Source: Streptomyces sp. CoH27 (GTDB lineage: Bacteria > Actinomycetota > Actinomycetes > Streptomycetales > Streptomycetaceae). Taken from it: a DNA stretch of 64,000 nt. Shown here piece by piece: positions 22,315-49,110 of the stretch; position 1 is the stretch's first letter, and each line of letters begins with the position of its first letter. Location of the stretch: positions 38,905 through 102,904 of the forward strand of contig NZ_JAIQYY010000006.1 in assembly GCF_020181035.1 (NCBI RefSeq), read 5' to 3'. A model generated the notes under the pieces. That model was given only the letters and a program-made list of their open reading frames with translations, did no database searches and had not been told where the DNA came from. Position numbers and translations under genes: made by a program.

Positions 22315-24398
22315 GTCTCCTGCCCCCGTCGTTCGTCCGGGAGACCCGCGGATACGGGCTCCCCCGAGGAACCGCCCGCCGTGTCGGGTTCCTCGTCTTC
22401 AATGATCTCTCCGGTCGCCGTGTTCACGGCGGGTGCGGCCGGGGCCGCCTGGGCGAGGGCCGCGGCGATGGTCTCGGCCGTCTTCCGGCCTATCCCGGGC
22501 ACCTCCTGGATCTGTTCGATTGTGGCGGCCCGGAGCTTCTTCACCGAGCCGAAATGCTTGATGAGCGCCTGTTTGCGGGTCTCGCCCAGGCCGGGGACGT
22601 CGTCCAGGGGGCCGGCGCGGAAGCGTTTGGCCCGCTTGGTGCGCTGGTAGGTGATCGCGAAGCGGTGAGCCTCGTCCCGCACGCGCTGGAGCAGATAGAG
22701 GCCCTCGCTGGTGCGCGGCAGGACCACCGGGTCGTCCTCGCCGGGCACCCAGACCTCCTCCAGGCGCTTGGCGAGGCCGCACACGGCGATGTCGTCGATG
22801 CCCAGCTCGTCCAGGGCGCGCCGGGCCGCCACGACCTGCGGCTGGCCGCCGTCGACCACGACGAGCTGCGGCGGGTAGGCGAACTTCCTGGGGCGGCCGT
22901 CGTCGTCCTTGAGGGAGTTCGTGATCTCGTCCGTGCCGGTCAGCACGGACTCGCCACCGGCCATGTCCTCCTCGCCGTCGGCCCACTCCCCCGTCCGCTC
23001 CTTCTCGGCGAGGTAGCGCCGGAAGCGGCGGCTGATCACCTCGTGCATGGAGCGGACGTCGTCCTGCCCGGCGAAACTCTTGATCTGGAAGCGGCGATAC
23101 TCACTCTTGCGCTGCAGGCCGTCCTCGAAGACGACCATGGAGGCGACCACGTCGTCCCCCTGGAGATGCGAGATGTCGTAGCACTCGATCCGGAGCGGGG
23201 CGCTGTCCAGGTCGAGGGCCTCGGCGATCTCCTCCAGGGCACGCGAGCGCGTGGTCAGGTCGGAGGCGCGCTTGGTCTTGTGCAGCGCGAGGGCCTGCTG
23301 GGCGTTGCGCTGCACGGTCTCCATGAGCGCCTTCTTGTCGCCGCGCTGCGGGATGCGCAGCGATACGTTCGCCCCACGTCGGCCGGTCAGCCACTCCTGG
23401 ACCGGCTCGACCGGCTCAGGCAGGGCCGGGACCAGCACCTCCTTCGGCACGGCGTCCCCGGTCTCCTCGCCGTACAGCTGCTGCAGAGCGTGCTCGACCA
23501 GTGCGCCGGTGGTGACGTCCTCGACCTTGTCGGTCACCCAGCCGCGCTGGCCACGCACCCGGCCACCGCGCACGTGGAAGATCTGGACGGCCGCCTCCAG
23601 TTCGTCCTCGGCGACGGCGATGAGGTCGGCGTCGGTCGCGTCGGCGAGCACGACCGCGTTCTTCTCCATAGCCTTCTTCAGGGCCTCGATGTCGTCGCGC
23701 AGCCGGGCGGCTCGCTCGTACTCCATCTCCTCGGCCGCCGCCATCATCTGCTTTTCCAGCCGGCGCAGGTAGGTACCGGTGCGTCCGGCCATGAAGTCGC
23801 AGAACTCCTCGGCCAGGTCCTGGTGGTCCTCGGGGCTGATCCGGCCGACACAGGGGGCCGAGCACTTGCCGATGTAGCCGAGCAGGCAGGGCCGGCCGGT
23901 GCGGGCGGCGTTCTTGAACACGCCGGCCGAGCAGGTACGCACCGGGAAGACGCGCAGGAGCAGGTCGACGGTGTCCCGGATGGCCCAGGCGTGCGCGTAC
24001 GGCCCGAAGTACCGCACGCCCTTCTTCTTGTGACCGCGCATCACCTGCACGCGCGGGAACTCCTCGTTCATCGTCACCGCGAGGTACGGGTAGCTCTTGT
24101 CGTCGCGGTACTTGACGTTGAACCGGGGGTCGTACTCCTTGATCCAGGAGTACTCCAGCTGGAGCGCCTCGACCTCCGTGGACACCACGGTCCACTCCAC
24201 GGACGCGGCGGTAGTCACCATCGTCCGGGTGCGCGGGTGCAGGTTCGCCAGGTCCTGGAAGTAGTTCGCCAGGCGGTGGCGCAGGCTTTTCGCCTTTCCG
24301 ACGTAGATCACCCGGCGGTGCTCGTCACGGAACCTGTACACCCCCGGAGAGTCCGGGATCTCACCCGGCCTGGGGCGGTAGCTGGAGGGGTCGGCCAT
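22311..24398 (-). CDS. uvrC: excinuclease ABC subunit C
   Basis: A 695-residue nuclease that makes both incisions in nucleotide excision repair. It has an N-terminal GIY-YIG domain ([21 protein letters not shown]), a Cys cluster (CPCVGR-type region near residue 175), a UVR motif ([23 protein letters not shown]), the RNase H-like half ([20 protein letters not shown]), and helix-hairpin-helix motifs near residues 590-650 ([28 protein letters not shown]). ATG 24398 follows a damage-type promoter almost directly. It heads the uvrC-rapZ-yvcK-whiA operon. Confidence 0.97.
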
Positions 24399-24405
24399 GT
24401 CTCAC

Positions 24406-24428
24406 ACCCTACTGGCGAGCACCGACAC
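24406..24428 (-). promoter_or_regulatory. weak DNA-damage-type promoter of uvrC
   Basis: On the minus strand GTGTCGGTGCT (24418-24428) is followed after six bases by a perfect TAGGGT (24406-24411). The -10 and spacing match the RecA-NDp/PafBC promoter, while the upstream box differs at several positions. The predicted start is within one or two bases of ATG 24398. Confidence 0.5.
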
Positions 24429-24465
24429 CGCGTCGGGCCTGTGGACAACGCCCGCCTCGCGCCGC

Positions 24466-32304: not shown

Positions 32305-32327
32305 AGACTAGGGGGAGCCACTGACAA
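32305..32327 (-). promoter_or_regulatory. DNA-damage promoter (RecA-NDp/PafBC type) of uvrA
   Basis: On the minus strand a perfect TTGTCAGTGGC (32317-32327) is followed after six bases by TAGTCT (32305-32310). This matches the known LexA-independent damage promoter, with two mismatches in the -10. A start near 32298 gives a 50-base leader containing the Shine-Dalgarno. Confidence 0.85.
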
Positions 32328-43849: not shown

Positions 43850-45988
43850 TCAGGCGAGGCCCGCCTCCCGCATCTGGCGCAGCTCCTTCTTCATCTCCGA
43901 GACCTCGTCGCGCAGCCGGGCCGCGATCTCGAACTGCAGCTCTGCGGCGGCGGCGCGCATCCGCTCGGTCATCTCCTCGATCTGCTCGGCGAGTTCGGCC
44001 GCCGGACGGTCCGTGGGCACCGCCTGGCCCTTGGCTGCCTTGCCGGCCTTCGCGCCCTTGGCCGCCTTGTCGCCGAGCGCCGGGACGGGTGCCTTGGCGC
44101 CCTTGCCGTCCTTGGACTTGCGGTAGCCGCTGCCGAGGAGCTGCTCGGTGTCGACCTCCTCGCGGGCGATCTGCGCGACGATGTCGTTGATCTTCTTGCG
44201 CAGCGGCTGCGGGTCGATGCCGTTCGCCTTGTTGTAGGCGACCTGCTTCTCCCGGCGGCGGTTGGTCTCCTCGATGGCCTTCTCCATCGCCGGGGTGATC
44301 TTGTCGGCGTACATGTGGACCTGGCCGGAGACGTTGCGCGCCGCGCGGCCGATGGTCTGGATCAGCGACGTGCCGGAGCGCAGGAAGCCCTCCTTGTCGG
44401 CGTCCAGGATCGCCACCAGGGACACCTCGGGCAGGTCGAGGCCCTCGCGCAGCAGGTTGATGCCGACCAGGACGTCGAACTCGCCGCTGCGCAGTTCGCG
44501 CAGCAGCTCGACGCGGCGCAGGGTGTCGACGTCGCTGTGCAGATAGCGCACCTGGATGCCCAGTTCCAGGAAATAGTCGGTGAGGTCCTCGGCCATCTTC
44601 TTTGTGAGTGTGGTGACGAGGACGCGCTCGTCCTTCTCGGTGCGCTTGCGGATCTCGTGCACCAGGTCGTCGATCTGGCCCTCGGTGGGCTTGACGACGA
44701 CCTCGGGATCGACGAGGCCGGTGGGGCGGATGATCTGCTCGACCGCGCCGTCGGAGCGCGACAGCTCGTACGGTCCCGGAGTGGCCGACAGGTAGACGCT
44801 CTGGCCGATGCGCTCCTGGAACTCCTCCCACTTCAGGGGGCGGTTGTCCAGGGCGGACGGCAGGCGGAAACCGTGTTCCACGAGGGTGCGCTTGCGGGAG
44901 GCGTCACCCTCGTACATGGCGCCGATCTGCGGGACCGTGACGTGTGACTCGTCGATGACGAGCAGGAAGTCGTCCGGGAAGTAGTCGAGCAGAGTGTTCG
45001 GCGGGGAGCCGGGCGAGCGGCCGTCGAAGTGCATCGAGTAGTTCTCCACGCCGGAGCAGGTGCCGATCTGGCGGAGCATCTCGATGTCGTACGTGGTGCG
45101 CATCCGCAGCCGCTGGGCCTCCAGCAGCTTGCCCTGCTTCTCCAGCTCGGCGAGGCGCTCCCCCAGCTCCTTCTCGATGTCGTTGACGGCCCGCTCCATG
45201 CGCTCCGGGCCGGCGACGTAGTGGGAGGCGGGGAAGACGTACAGCTGCTGGTCGTCGCTGATGATCTCGCCGGTGAGCGGGTGCAGCGTGGACAGCGCCT
45301 CGATCTCGTCGCCGAACATCTCGATACGGACGGCCAGCTCCTCGTAGACCGGGAAGATCTCGATGGTGTCGCCGCGGACCCGGAAGGTGCCGCGGGTGAA
45401 GGCCAAGTCGTTGCGGGTGTACTGGATGTCGACGAAGCGGCGCAGCAGCTCGTCCCGGTCGATCTCGTCGCCGACCCTCAGGGGGACCATCCGGTCCACG
45501 TACTCCTGCGGGGTGCCGAGGCCGTAGATGCAGGAGACCGAGGCGACCACGACGACGTCGCGGCGGGTGAGCAGCGAGTTCGTCGCCGAGTGGCGCAGGC
45601 GCTCGACCTCCTCGTTGATCGAGGAGTCCTTCTCGATGTAGGTGTCCGACTGCGGGACATAGGCCTCGGGCTGGTAGTAGTCGTAGTACGAGACGAAGTA
45701 CTCGACCGCGTTGTTCGGCAACAGCTCGCGGAATTCGTTGGCCAGCTGAGCGGCCAGCGTCTTGTTCGGCGCCATCACGAGCGTGGGGCGCTGAAGCTTC
45801 TCGATCATCCACGCTGTGGTGGCGGACTTGCCGGTGCCGGTCGCGCCCAGCAGGACGACGTCCTTCTCACCGGCCTCGATGCGCTTGGCCAGCTCGGCGA
45901 TGGCCGCCGGCTGGTCTCCGCTGGGCTGGTAGGGGCTGACGACCTCGAAGGGCGCCACCGTGCGTTCGATGTGGGAAACGGGCCGCAT
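43850..45988 (-). CDS. uvrB: excinuclease ABC subunit B
   Basis: A 712-residue helicase-fold protein that verifies damage and loads UvrC. It has Walker A GATGTGKS, the strand-insertion beta-hairpin ([21 protein letters not shown]), LLVIDESHV-type motif [21 protein letters not shown], and QTIGRAARN (motif VI). A C-terminal UVR motif ([30 protein letters not shown]) follows a Lys/Ala-rich linker. ATG 45988 is used; an upstream GTG (46018) would lie inside the promoter. The damage-type promoter places the transcript start at this ATG, so the message is probably leaderless. Confidence 0.97.
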
Positions 45989-45995
45989 GCCATCC

Positions 45996-46018
45996 ACCGT
46001 ACGACCCCCCACTGACAA
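45996..46018 (-). promoter_or_regulatory. DNA-damage promoter (RecA-NDp/PafBC type) of uvrB
   Basis: On the minus strand TTGTCAGTGGG (46008-46018) is followed after six bases by TACGGT (45996-46001). Ten of eleven upstream positions match the consensus. A start six to eight bases past the -10 coincides with ATG 45988. Confidence 0.85.
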
Positions 46019-46037
46019 CGGGCCCCGATCAGGTGTT

Positions 46038-46892
46038 TTACCTGGTCCGGGAGCCGTGGTGCTCGGGTTGGCGCTCGTTGTGGAGCGCGGGCCGGCGGTC
46101 CAGGTGGGAGGCGACGGCGGCGGGGACGCCCGGTTTGTGCTCGGCGATCCTGCGGACGGGCCGGCCCATCACCATCAGCGGGTCGAAGACCACGACGACC
46201 GCCGCGAGGAGCAGGAAGGCGAGCGGGCCGATCAGCATGGGTGCGAGCACGGACGGCTCCGGCGCGCCGCCGGTGGCATGAGAGGGGCCGTCGAGGTGGA
46301 CGCGCAGGGCTGCCATGCCCATGTAGTGCATGCCGCTCACCGCGAACCCCATGACGAGGCTCGCCCCCACGCTCCAGAGGAAGCCGCGCACGCGTCCGGC
46401 GGCCCACAGGGCGGCGGTCGCGGCCACCACCGCTATGACGACGGAGGCGGCGACGGTGAGGGTGTTGTAGGTGAACCGCCCGTGGAAGTGGACGCCGGCC
46501 ATGCCGAGGTAGTGCATCGAGGCGACGCCCAGACCGGTGATCGTGCCGCCGGTGAAGAGCGCGGTGCCGGTGGCGCCCCGGTAGCCGACGATGAAGATGC
46601 CGACGCCGACCATGACGATCGCGAGGCCGAGGCTCGCGTAGGTGATCGGCTTGTCGTAGTGGATCGGTGTCTCCTTGATGGCAAAGCCCATCATGGCGAC
46701 GAAGTGCATGGTCCATATGCCGGAGCCGATCGCGGCGGCGCCGAGGGCCAGCCAGGCGGGCCGCCAGGAGTGCGTGACCAGCAGCGCCCGGGTGGTGCAG
46801 CGCAGGCCGAGGGCACCGCCCAGGCAGGCCATCAGATAGGCCACCAACGGGGTGACGGCCCCGTAGCTGAATCCGTCGACCGTGCCTTGCAT
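46038..46892 (-). CDS. MHYT-domain integral membrane sensor
   Basis: A 284-residue membrane protein with seven TM helices. The repeated MHYT motif occurs three times at membrane boundaries: [18 protein letters not shown] and MHYMGMAAL. The conserved Met/His residues are thought to bind copper and sense O2, CO or NO. Unlike many relatives, no GGDEF, EAL or kinase domain follows; the C-terminus is a short cytoplasmic tail, so output would require a partner. ATG 46892 is chosen because the first TM follows directly. Confidence 0.9.
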
Positions 46893-47034
46893 CCGTGGCT
46901 GCCCTTCCGCCCTCTTGCGTCCCGGAATACCTGAAATGTTCCCCCGGCCCAGGACCGCGCGGGCGGTCAGGGTTGTCGCAGAGAGTATGACTCCCACCGG
47001 AATGGTCGAACGATTTTCCGGCAAAGAAACACGG

Positions 47035-47058
47035 CGTTGCCGCACTTGTGCGGCAACG
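47035..47058. promoter_or_regulatory. 11-bp-arm inverted repeat between the MHYT and GDPD genes
   Basis: Arms CGTTGCCGCAC (47035-47045) and GTGCGGCAACG (47048-47058) pair perfectly across TT. It lies between divergent start codons (143 bp from one, 115 bp from the other) and has no T-run, so it is more likely an operator than a terminator. Confidence 0.6.
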
Positions 47059-47172
47059 GTGAGCGCACGTCGACATCTGCCTGCGATGTGTGACCGTCAT
47101 GCGCGCGCGTACCACTGACGATCTGCTGTCACTCTTGTTGCATTCGGTATTCGCTGGACGCGAGGAGTCTGC

Positions 47173-48048
47173 ATGCACGCGCGCGTAGTGGGGGCCGTCA
47201 CGGCCGTCGCGGCCCTGGGGGTCGCGGCGGTCCTGTTGATCCCGTCTTCCGACGCCCGGGCCGGCGGTTCCGGCGCGCCTACGGTGATCGCACACCGCGG
47301 CGCCTCCGCCTACGCTCCCGAGAACACGCTGGCCTCGATCGACAAGGCCGCGCAGCTGGGCTTCACCTGGGTCGAGAACGACGTCCAGCGCACCAAGGAC
47401 GGCGAGCTGGTCGTCATCCACGACGACAGCCTCAACCGCACCACGAACGTCGAGCAGGTCTTCCCCGGCCGGGCGCCGTGGAAGGTGAAGGACTTCACCG
47501 CGGCCGAGATCGCCCGGCTGGACGCGGGCAGCTGGTACTCCCCCGCGTACGCGGGCACGCGCGTGCCGACCCTCACGCAGTACATGCGCCGGATCGAGCA
47601 CAACCACGAGAAGCTGCTCCTGGAGGTCAAGAACCCCGAGCTGTACCCGGGTATGGAGCAGCAGATCCTGAAGCTCCTCGGCAACGAGGGCTGGCTCGAT
47701 CAGAGCCATCTGGGGCGGCTGATCGTGCAGAGTTTCAGCGCCGACAGCATCCGGACCGTGCACGAGCTGAAGCCGGCCGTCACCACGGCCCTTCTCGGCT
47801 CGCCCAAGGTGGCGCAGCTGCACCAGTACGCGCGCTTCACCGATCTGGTCAATCCCTCGACCGGGTCGCTCTCCCTGGGCTACGTCGCGGCCGTGCACGC
47901 CTTCAAGGGGGCGCACGGCAGGCGGCTCGGCGTGTTCGCCTGGACGGTGAACGACGCGGCCGCCGCCCGCAGGGTCGCGGGTTACGGCGTCGACGGAATC
48001 ATCACCAACAAGCCTGACGTGGTGCGGGGGGCGCTGGGCTCGGGCTGA
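47173..48048 (+). CDS. secreted glycerophosphodiester phosphodiesterase
   Basis: A 291-residue enzyme with an N-terminal signal peptide (residues 1-30, ending near SDARA). It hydrolyses glycerophosphodiesters from lipids or teichoic acid to glycerol 3-phosphate. The catalytic and metal residues are in VIAHRGASAYAPENT (His, Arg, Glu, Asn), VENDVQRTKDGELVVIHDD and LLEVKNPE. ATG 47173 has GAGGAG eight bases upstream. No transporter for the product is adjacent. Phosphate control is possible, but no pho box was read. Confidence 0.94.
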   Translation: MHARVVGAVTAVAALGVAAVLLIPSSDARAGGSGAPTVIAHRGASAYAPENTLASIDKAAQLGFTWVENDVQRTKDGELVVIHDDSLNRTTNVEQVFPGRAPWKVKDFTAAEIARLDAGSWYSPAYAGTRVPTLTQYMRRIEHNHEKLLLEVKNPELYPGMEQQILKLLGNEGWLDQSHLGRLIVQSFSADSIRTVHELKPAVTTALLGSPKVAQLHQYARFTDLVNPSTGSLSLGYVAAVHAFKGAHGRRLGVFAWTVNDAAAARRVAGYGVDGIITNKPDVVRGALGSG

Positions 48049-48060
48049 GCCGGGCGGGCG

Positions 48061-48083
48061 TTGTCAGTGGCGGGCCGTACCGT
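48061..48083 (+). promoter_or_regulatory. DNA-damage promoter (RecA-NDp/PafBC type) of the alkylguanine methyltransferase gene
   Basis: A perfect TTGTCAGTGGC (48061-48071) is followed after six bases by TACCGT (48078-48083). The expected transcript start falls on the A of ATG 48090, and no Shine-Dalgarno is present, so translation should be leaderless. Confidence 0.88.
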
Positions 48084-48089
48084 GGTCGC

Positions 48090-48644
48090 ATGGACAGCCA
48101 AGGGCAGGATGAGCAACGGGTCGTGTGGGCCGTCGTCGGCAGCGACATCGGTCCGCTGATGCTGGCCGCGAGCCGCGACGGCCTGGTCAACGTCGTCTTC
48201 AACGCCACGGACGCGGTGCGCGACCGGGCCTTGGAGCGGCTGGCGTCCCGGCTCGGCGTCACCCCGGTCGAGGATCCGGACTCGCCGCTGCTGGCCGAGG
48301 CGATACGCCAGCTGCGCGCGTACTTCGCGGGCGAGCGGCACGGCTTCGATCTGCCGCTGGACTGGTCGCTCATCTCCGGCTTCAACCGGCAGGTGCTGCG
48401 CGAGCTGGCCTCCGGGGTGCCGTACGGCACGGTGGTGGGGTACGGCGATCTCGCGGGCCGGGTCGGGCAGCCCGGCGGGGCGCAGGCGGTCGGCGCGGCG
48501 ATGGGCGCCAATCCTCTGCCGGTGGTGGTGCCGTGTCACCGCGTGGTGGAGAGCGATGGCGGTATCGGGGGTTTCGGGGGCGGGCTGGAGACCAAGCGGA
48601 AGCTGCTCGCGCTGGAGGGCGTGCTGCCCGAGCCGCTGTTCTGA
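48090..48644 (+). CDS. ogt: methylated-DNA--[protein]-cysteine S-methyltransferase
   Basis: A 184-residue suicide repair protein that moves an alkyl group from O6-alkylguanine to its own cysteine. The active site VVVPCHRVV is present, preceded by VPYGTVVGYGDLAGRVGQPGGAQAVGAAMGANPLP (helix-turn-helix and arginine finger region) and followed by GIGGFGGGLETKRKLLALEG. The N-terminal ribonuclease-like part is standard. It stands alone with a damage-type promoter and a leaderless start, and converges on the VOC gene. Confidence 0.95.
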   Translation: MDSQGQDEQRVVWAVVGSDIGPLMLAASRDGLVNVVFNATDAVRDRALERLASRLGVTPVEDPDSPLLAEAIRQLRAYFAGERHGFDLPLDWSLISGFNRQVLRELASGVPYGTVVGYGDLAGRVGQPGGAQAVGAAMGANPLPVVVPCHRVVESDGGIGGFGGGLETKRKLLALEGVLPEPLF

Positions 48645-48678
48645 CCGCTGACTTGTGGCCCTCTGATCCGGTCAGGGT

Positions 48679-49110
48679 TCAGTCGTCGTAGTGCCGGGCC
48701 TCGAAGACGTTGCCGTCGGGGTCCTGAAAGTAGAACGTGCGCGGGGCGTTGCCGCGGGCTCCGAACGAGTCGTGGCCGATGTCGGACAACGGCACGCCGT
48801 GGTGCTCCAGCCGGGCGCGCAGAGCGTCGAAGGCCTCGGCCGGCAGGGACAGACAGACGTGGTTGACCGGGTGGCCGGCGCTGTCGGCGGCACCGGGCAG
48901 CATTTTCATTTGGTCCACAAAGGTGCGCGGCGCGAGGTCCAGGAGGGTCTCCTCGTTGACGCGCATGGAAGGGAACGGCACCTTCCCCTCGATGAACTCG
49001 GTGAGTCTCACGGGCTCCAGACCGACGGCGTCCGCGTGGAAGCGGGCTGCGGCCACCGGGTCGGTCACCCACAGGACGACGTGGTCGAGACGCATGCTGT
49101 TCTTCGTCAT
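48679..49110 (-). CDS. VOC-superfamily (glyoxalase/dioxygenase fold) protein
   Basis: A 143-residue vicinal-oxygen-chelate protein. The first module starts MRLDHVVLWVTDPVAAARFHADAVGLEPVR, and the second has NHVCLSLPAEAFDALRARLEHHGV and ends FYFQDPDGNVFEARHYDD. The His and Glu metal positions (DHVVL, NHVCL, FEARH) are consistent with a mononuclear metal site. Activity could be glyoxalase, dioxygenase or resistance-type binding; it cannot be told from sequence. ATG 49110 adds five residues; ATG 49095 is an alternative. Confidence 0.85.
   Translation of the reverse strand: MTKNSMRLDHVVLWVTDPVAAARFHADAVGLEPVRLTEFIEGKVPFPSMRVNEETLLDLAPRTFVDQMKMLPGAADSAGHPVNHVCLSLPAEAFDALRARLEHHGVPLSDIGHDSFGARGNAPRTFYFQDPDGNVFEARHYDD

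Follow-up and report, generated by a model that had tools for sequence, protein, structure and literature searches.

Which kind of promoter serves the alkylation repair gene ogt in this Streptomyces genome, and where does the ogt message begin? A sequence-only reading of the window (the whole stretch of 64,000 nucleotides that was analysed) had placed a damage promoter of the LexA-independent type directly before ogt and had predicted a leaderless message from it. The features at this locus are as follows.

47173..48048, + strand: gene for GDPD (glycerophosphodiester phosphodiesterase), upstream neighbour of ogt
48061..48069, + strand: TTGTCAGTG, PafBC-type upstream (-26/-35 region) element of the ogt promoter, 9/9 to consensus
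48078..48083, + strand: TACCGT, -10 element (TAnnnT) of ogt, 8 nt past TTGTCAGTG
48090..48090, + strand: predicted ogt transcription start at the A of ATG (leaderless), from spacing and conservation
48090..48644, + strand: ogt, O6-alkylguanine-DNA (methylated-DNA--protein-cysteine) methyltransferase, 184 aa, from Pfam and NCBIfam

The bases, read directly, agree with the motif as first described, TTGTCAGTG-N8-TACCGT at 48061-48083, and its upstream part matches TTGTC(A/G)GTG (or TGTCRGTG), which we take to be the RecA-NDp/PafBC promoter consensus. The complete order is TTGTCAGTGGC (48061-48071), GGGCCG (48072-48077), TACCGT (48078-48083), GGTCGC (48084-48089) and ATG (48090), which leaves 6 nt between the -10 element and the ATG, with C at -1, A at +1 and T at +2. 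The stop codon of the GDPD gene lies 12 nt 5' of the motif and 41 nt 5' of the ogt ATG. The ogt product matches the Pfam families DNA_binding_1 (E 3.6e-29) and Methyltransf_1N (E 2.1e-12), scores above the cut-off of the NCBIfam family ogt (TIGR00589) and contains the PCHRV active-site motif; as expected of an MGMT, it joins a DNA-binding domain with the PCHR active site to a ribonuclease-like N-domain.

Two other elements were looked for. An ordinary E. coli-type sigma-70 promoter was rejected, a scan of 46900-48800 having found none. For CGAAC-N4-GTTCG, presumably the LexA box, the best match in 47700-48150 had at least 3 mismatches of 10 (none had two or fewer), and such weak matches are common in the window. 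A GGAGG-like Shine-Dalgarno (SD) core is absent before ATG 48090.

It is most likely, with a probability of roughly 0.84, that 48061-48083 is a LexA-independent PafBC-type (RecA-NDp) promoter that makes a leaderless ogt mRNA. ogt would then be induced in the following way. DNA damage would give rise to single-stranded DNA, to which the WYL regulators PafB and PafC would bind, and PafBC would let the housekeeping RNA polymerase use TGTC(A/G)GTG instead of a normal -35 element. Transcription would start 6-7 nt past the TAnnnT -10 element; at ogt, the predicted 5' end is exactly the A of the ATG, so the ogt mRNA would carry no leader and would be translated without an SD sequence.

To count the motif, a strict pattern was defined as TTGTCAGTG-N8-TAnnnT, and the same pattern read backwards served as control. 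With up to two mismatches, the window contains four matches (three exact and one with two mismatches), whereas shuffled versions had a mean of 0.56 and none of 100 reached four. The source genome (9.75 Mb) has the strict motif 33 times versus 0 for the reversed control, and 204 versus 65 matches when up to two mismatches are permitted. Across 61 Streptomyces genomes, 1215 strict sites were found versus 4 reversed ones, with at least three in every genome, although orthologous sites recur across genomes and these totals are therefore not independent. The genus of the compared genomes was taken as Streptomyces from the best named ogt loci (80/80). Among named species, S. violaceoruber, S. viridochromogenes, S. 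coeruleorubidus and S. pseudovenezuelae have 26-30 strict sites each, with a control count of 0.

The strict motif is abundant in Streptomyces, unlike in the rest of a phylum sample of 296 genomes. It was present in all 12 genomes of the same genus (6-37 each) but in only 24 of 284 from other genera, with 32 matches versus 14 in the control and a single copy in 18 of the 24; the strict pattern does not allow the A/G choice at position 6, so mycobacteria are underrated in this count. Fourteen of the 32 matches (versus one in the control) sit in seven genomes of the same class, and the remaining 18 compare with 13. Outside the class, the strict motif is thus at control level.

We then compared ogt itself across the genus. 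From 121 genomes, 114 aligned ogt loci were obtained (own locus included), while seven were dropped, six of them with distant matches and one (G116) being partial with a stop. For each locus, the highest-scoring site between -300 and +60 relative to the aligned start was taken, with ties favouring the expected place. Conservation at the scored positions (including T, A and the final T of the -10 element) is therefore in part a product of this selection, whereas the in-frame start 6 or 7 nt on does not enter the score. In 110 of the 114 orthologues, the best motif match was followed by an in-frame ATG (85) or GTG (25), at a distance from the -10 element of 6 nt in 60 cases and 7 nt in 50. Both parts of the initial proposal, the RecA-NDp/PafBC-type promoter and the leaderless message without SD, are supported by this comparison. 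A 4-nt SD core at -15 to -5 occurred in 0 of the 110. Motif scores were at least 10/12 in 105 of these 110 loci, 9 in three and 8 in two. TGTC has a single exception among the 110 sites (C at the first T), and GTC, TA and the last T are invariant; variation is found mainly at the first T of TTG and at position 6 (A/G). The flank upstream of the motif is poorly conserved at -15 to -5 (0.16-0.62 bits) and reaches 0.8-1.4 bits in the four bases beside the motif. The reversed consensus scored at most 8/12 in all 194 stretches (the 114 and 80 named loci). All 80 named Streptomyces ogt loci score 11-12 and have a start at 6 or 7 nt; they come from the nearest relatives (84-94% identity), and some of them may also be among the 114.

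Several observations count against the PafBC reading, among them the control-level count outside the class and the reports on M. tuberculosis, S. lividans, S. venezuelae and ClgR described below. Four of the 114 orthologues (L102, L140, L143 and L149) have no motif, five more score only 8-9 of 12, two of these low-scoring loci equal the best controls at most, and eleven distant MGMT homologues outside the genus score 6-9. In favour of that reading, nine Streptomyces MGMT paralogues score 6-7/12, which is background; the idea that the motif is a general property of MGMT genes was rejected on this ground. The scores of the paralogues and distant homologues indicate that, as far as tested, the link between motif and gene is specific to the orthologue and to the genus.

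With regard to the regulator, the source genome contains ten WYL-domain matches. Two adjacent genes, of 357 and 334 aa, match the solved PafB/PafC chains and a fused PafBC (best E 5.2e-54 and 1.4e-51), structure entries that we take to be those of M. smegmatis and Arthrobacter. NCBIfam gave no family name for either PafB or PafC of this genome. The pair is located downstream of pafA and upstream of a DEAD helicase gene whose ATG is itself preceded by the motif at a distance of 10 nt. A PafC was present in all 61 genomes of the genus. Mycobacterial PafBC is described as being activated by single-stranded DNA and as adapting the housekeeping holoenzyme to such promoters, and it is the regulator for which an initiation complex on them has been solved, according to the available text (PMC11804915).

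The ogt promoter had also been proposed to share its control with uvrA and uvrB. This proposal is right at the level of sequence, both genes carrying the exact motif, and the link extends to uvrC through a variant of it:

45996..46018, - strand: exact motif of uvrB, with an in-frame ATG at 45988, 7 nt past the -10 element
43850..45988, - strand: uvrB from the leaderless ATG, 712 aa, from the UvrB Pfam match
32305..32327, - strand: exact motif of uvrA (UvrA domains), the first candidate start being about 44 nt or more downstream
24406..24428, - strand: variant motif GTGTCGGTG-N8-TAGGGT of uvrC (UvrC domains), with an ATG at 24398, 7 nt past the -10 element

Because of the distance to its first candidate start, uvrA would be leadered. 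The uvrB and ogt promoters point apart over about 2 kb (window 45996-48083), and similar pairs on opposite strands occur in several other genomes. Just 5' of the uvrC promoter variant lies TTGTCCACA (window 24440-24448, - strand), which resembles a DnaA box.

The genome scan that had been suggested as a check gave the 33 strict sites mentioned above, and in at least 12 of them the nearest downstream gene is a replication or repair gene by Pfam, a raw count over these sites alone. These are recA, uvrA, uvrB, ogt, ruvC, MgsA/RarA and dnaX, together with genes for a UvrD-type helicase, a RecD2 HHH-domain protein, an AlkZ-like glycosylase, a uracil-DNA glycosylase and a DNA polymerase III beta paralogue. 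The number would rise to 14 with a RadA-like ATPase and the DEAD helicase next to pafBC, whose assignment is based partly on domains and place. The remaining sites include those of an ECF sigma factor, MazG-like, WGR and SWIM proteins, an ABC transporter, an oxidoreductase and genes without a Pfam family. Genes were assigned to the 33 sites with a GC3 filter and a start chosen by the analyst. An independent sign of repair-gene enrichment comes from S. lividans, where a class of mapped promoters with TGTC, a 12-nt spacer and TANNNT, published in 2019, was enriched for COG L in the portions of the paper available (PMC6742748).

Sites with one mismatch in the source genome (L261-L280) showed a pattern of their own. 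In many of them TTGTCAGTG is intact and the -10 element lacks its first T (or its A), often with TG just 5', giving an extended -10 look. Of 20 such sites picked by eye, eight have ATG or GTG at 6-7 nt with a frame open to the end of the stretch retrieved, including genes for a DEAD helicase and DNA polymerase III delta. Sites of this kind are probably a second sub-class. At one of them (L266, C14:133139-133220), two motif copies, one exact and one with a mismatch, are divergent within about 80 bp, and the exact copy adjoins the ATG of a SWIM-domain protein.

Four other explanations of the ogt site have to be weighed. The leading one, unlikely as it is, accepts the site but holds that the main ogt message starts upstream by read-through from GDPD, or that translation begins at a later codon, and that ogt is not leaderless. 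The GDPD gene is on the same strand, its stop is only 41 nt before the ogt ATG, and a GDPD match is present in 101 of the 114 orthologous loci. What argues against this explanation is that an in-frame start is kept 6 or 7 nt past the -10 element in 110 of 114 loci even as the codon itself varies (ATG 85, GTG 25), and that the SD core is found in none of these 110. At the other extreme, we give practically no credence to a chance resemblance in GC-rich DNA: no point in its favour was found, and it is refuted by the shuffle, reversed-pattern, paralogue and offset controls. The motif before ogt is not there by chance.

The other two explanations concern the factor that reads the promoter. TAnnnT is a -10 element of the sigma-70 type, and this counts against a dedicated ECF-type sigma factor (of the SCO4895/SLIV_13900 type) as the reader, a proposal that follows the S. 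lividans authors and that we place second among the rivals and consider improbable. In the accessible text of that study, the class with the 12-nt spacer was ascribed to an unknown sigma factor, no peak for it was seen in the HrdB regulon of S. coelicolor, and promoters of the TGTC/12-nt-spacer class precede two sigma genes (PMC6742748); an ECF sigma gene of the source genome (L014), a candidate SCO4895 orthologue, also bears the motif. On the other side, 7 of 61 genomes yielded no close orthologue of this motif-bearing sigma gene (35 of 40-74 candidates scored in each of the seven); five of them (G017, G030, G034, G049 and G058) had no match at E 1e-60 and two (G035 and G047) only matches of 45-46% identity. 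These seven genomes nevertheless retain 16-34 strict motifs, 8-15 of them with the leaderless spacing, and control by the ECF sigma factor alone was rejected for this reason. In our reading, the motif-bearing ECF sigma gene would be a target of the motif rather than its reader. It is also conceivable, with a still slighter chance, that the RecA-NDp promoter is read mainly with another regulator, either ClgR, which has been proposed to recognise the motif in mycobacteria (cited in the available text of PMC5656591), or one of the other WYL proteins suggested by the ten WYL-domain matches. The solved initiation complex on such promoters is that of PafBC, as far as the source text extends (PMC11804915), and both the presence of the PafB/PafC pair in the source genome and that of PafC in 61/61 genomes favour PafBC over another regulator.

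Returning to a PafBC-type promoter with a leaderless product, we asked how common the layout seen at ogt is. In the source genome, ATG or GTG follows the -10 element at 6 nt (5 sites) or 7 nt (14 sites) in 19 of the 33 strict sites, versus a background of 0.88 per offset at offsets 9-60 (binomial P about 3e-16 against this background and 2e-6 against a leaderless rate of 20%). Not every ATG or GTG at this spacing begins a gene; of the 19, 18 open a reading frame of at least 45 aa and 17 one of at least 98 aa. The genus gave a similar picture, with ATG or GTG at 6-7 nt in 566 of 1215 strict sites (47%), 0 in the reversed control and a background of about 5%. For comparison, about 20% of genes are leaderless in S. 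lividans and S. coelicolor, and more than 90% of the leaderless genes of S. lividans have a 0-nt leader, by the available account (PMC6742748). Set against both this share and the background, the 47% suggests that leaderlessness looks like a habit of the promoter class. The same account describes a preference of S. lividans starts for a pyrimidine, chiefly C, at -1, a purine at +1 and T at +2, into which the C, A and T at the predicted ogt start fit.

The promoter kind is already known, and the ogt site is a real and conserved member of it. It resembles the mycobacterial RecA-NDp/PafBC-dependent (P1) promoters in its TGTCRGTG element, in the 8 nt to TAnnnT, in its position before damage genes and in the presence of pafBC in the genome, and a review also states, in the part available, that the RecA-NDp motif extends beyond mycobacteria (PMC8223512). 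It differs from the mycobacterial P1 promoters in that about half of the Streptomyces sites have a start codon 6-7 nt on. Within the genus, RecA-NDp promoters of the same type were described for recA and for SCO6735 of S. coelicolor, the latter being UV-inducible (PMC5087735); in contrast to the present analysis, the accessible portion of that paper mentions neither ogt, uvrB or uvrC nor a leaderless layout as a regulon feature. Whereas ogt is a predicted target in Streptomyces, the alkA-ogt operon of M. tuberculosis, according to the text available, kept its induction when recA was deleted and pafBC was knocked down (PMC8151990), and PafBC control of ogt could therefore not simply be transferred from mycobacteria.

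Two earlier studies of Streptomyces can be joined by these counts. The S. lividans class, with TGTC and 12 nt to TANNNT, has exactly the geometry of the ogt motif and a similar enrichment of replication and repair genes; the word PafBC is absent from the main text of that report, and a link to leaderless genes was not found in the portions available (PMC6742748). A 2022 study of LexA in S. venezuelae stated, in the passages accessible, that an initial search had pointed to a lack of conservation of the M. smegmatis PafBC motif in that species and that a LexA-independent damage response in Streptomyces remains to be shown (PMC9380542). The presence of the motif in 61/61 genomes of the same genus and in the four named species speaks indirectly against such non-conservation, S. 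venezuelae itself being absent from the 80 named loci, and the analysis names candidate targets, including direct alkylation reversal. In the open-access literature searched, mostly by title and abstract, we found no report of a Streptomyces PafBC regulon, of its leaderless layout or of PafBC control of ogt; to that extent, what appears to be new is ogt as a target, the size of the Streptomyces regulon and how tightly the promoter is coupled to the start codon.

We consider it slightly better than an even bet that there is a genus-wide Streptomyces PafBC regulon in which promoter geometry is coupled to translation. In about half of the strict sites, an activator-dependent promoter would put +1 on the start codon, so that much of the damage response would consist of leaderless mRNA. 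Sites covered by such a regulon would be those of ogt, uvrB, recA, the radA-like gene, rarA, dnaX and others, with uvrC joining through its variant motif. If this is true, the orphan class of S. lividans with the 12-nt spacer would be identified, the report of non-conservation in S. venezuelae would be overturned and RecA would gain a longer N-terminus from a leaderless GTG. This also raises the question of whether the damage response of these antibiotic producers is translated largely from leaderless messages, and whether this might be helpful under stress on ribosomes or initiation.

Two minor observations concern the same spacing. At recA (L023, C23:130690-130712; L241-L260), a GTG lies 7 nt past the -10 element in the RecA frame in the source genome and 20 others, the 20 loci having been drawn from lists preselected for ATG or GTG at that spacing, which makes the presence of the GTG itself uninformative. 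Starting from this GTG would add 12 residues (VKRSTQANRVEP or nearly so) before MAGTDREKAL, and the added stretch is open, in frame and nearly invariant in 21/21; this may reflect a longer RecA made from a leaderless message, or an overlapping element. Outside the genus, six MGMT homologues from another family of the order (L286-L291) are preceded by YTGTCGGYCCCGSTYGGCACAAT, six bases and then ATG. This regular element differs from the motif and may be a damage promoter that has diverged in sequence while keeping the leaderless spacing.
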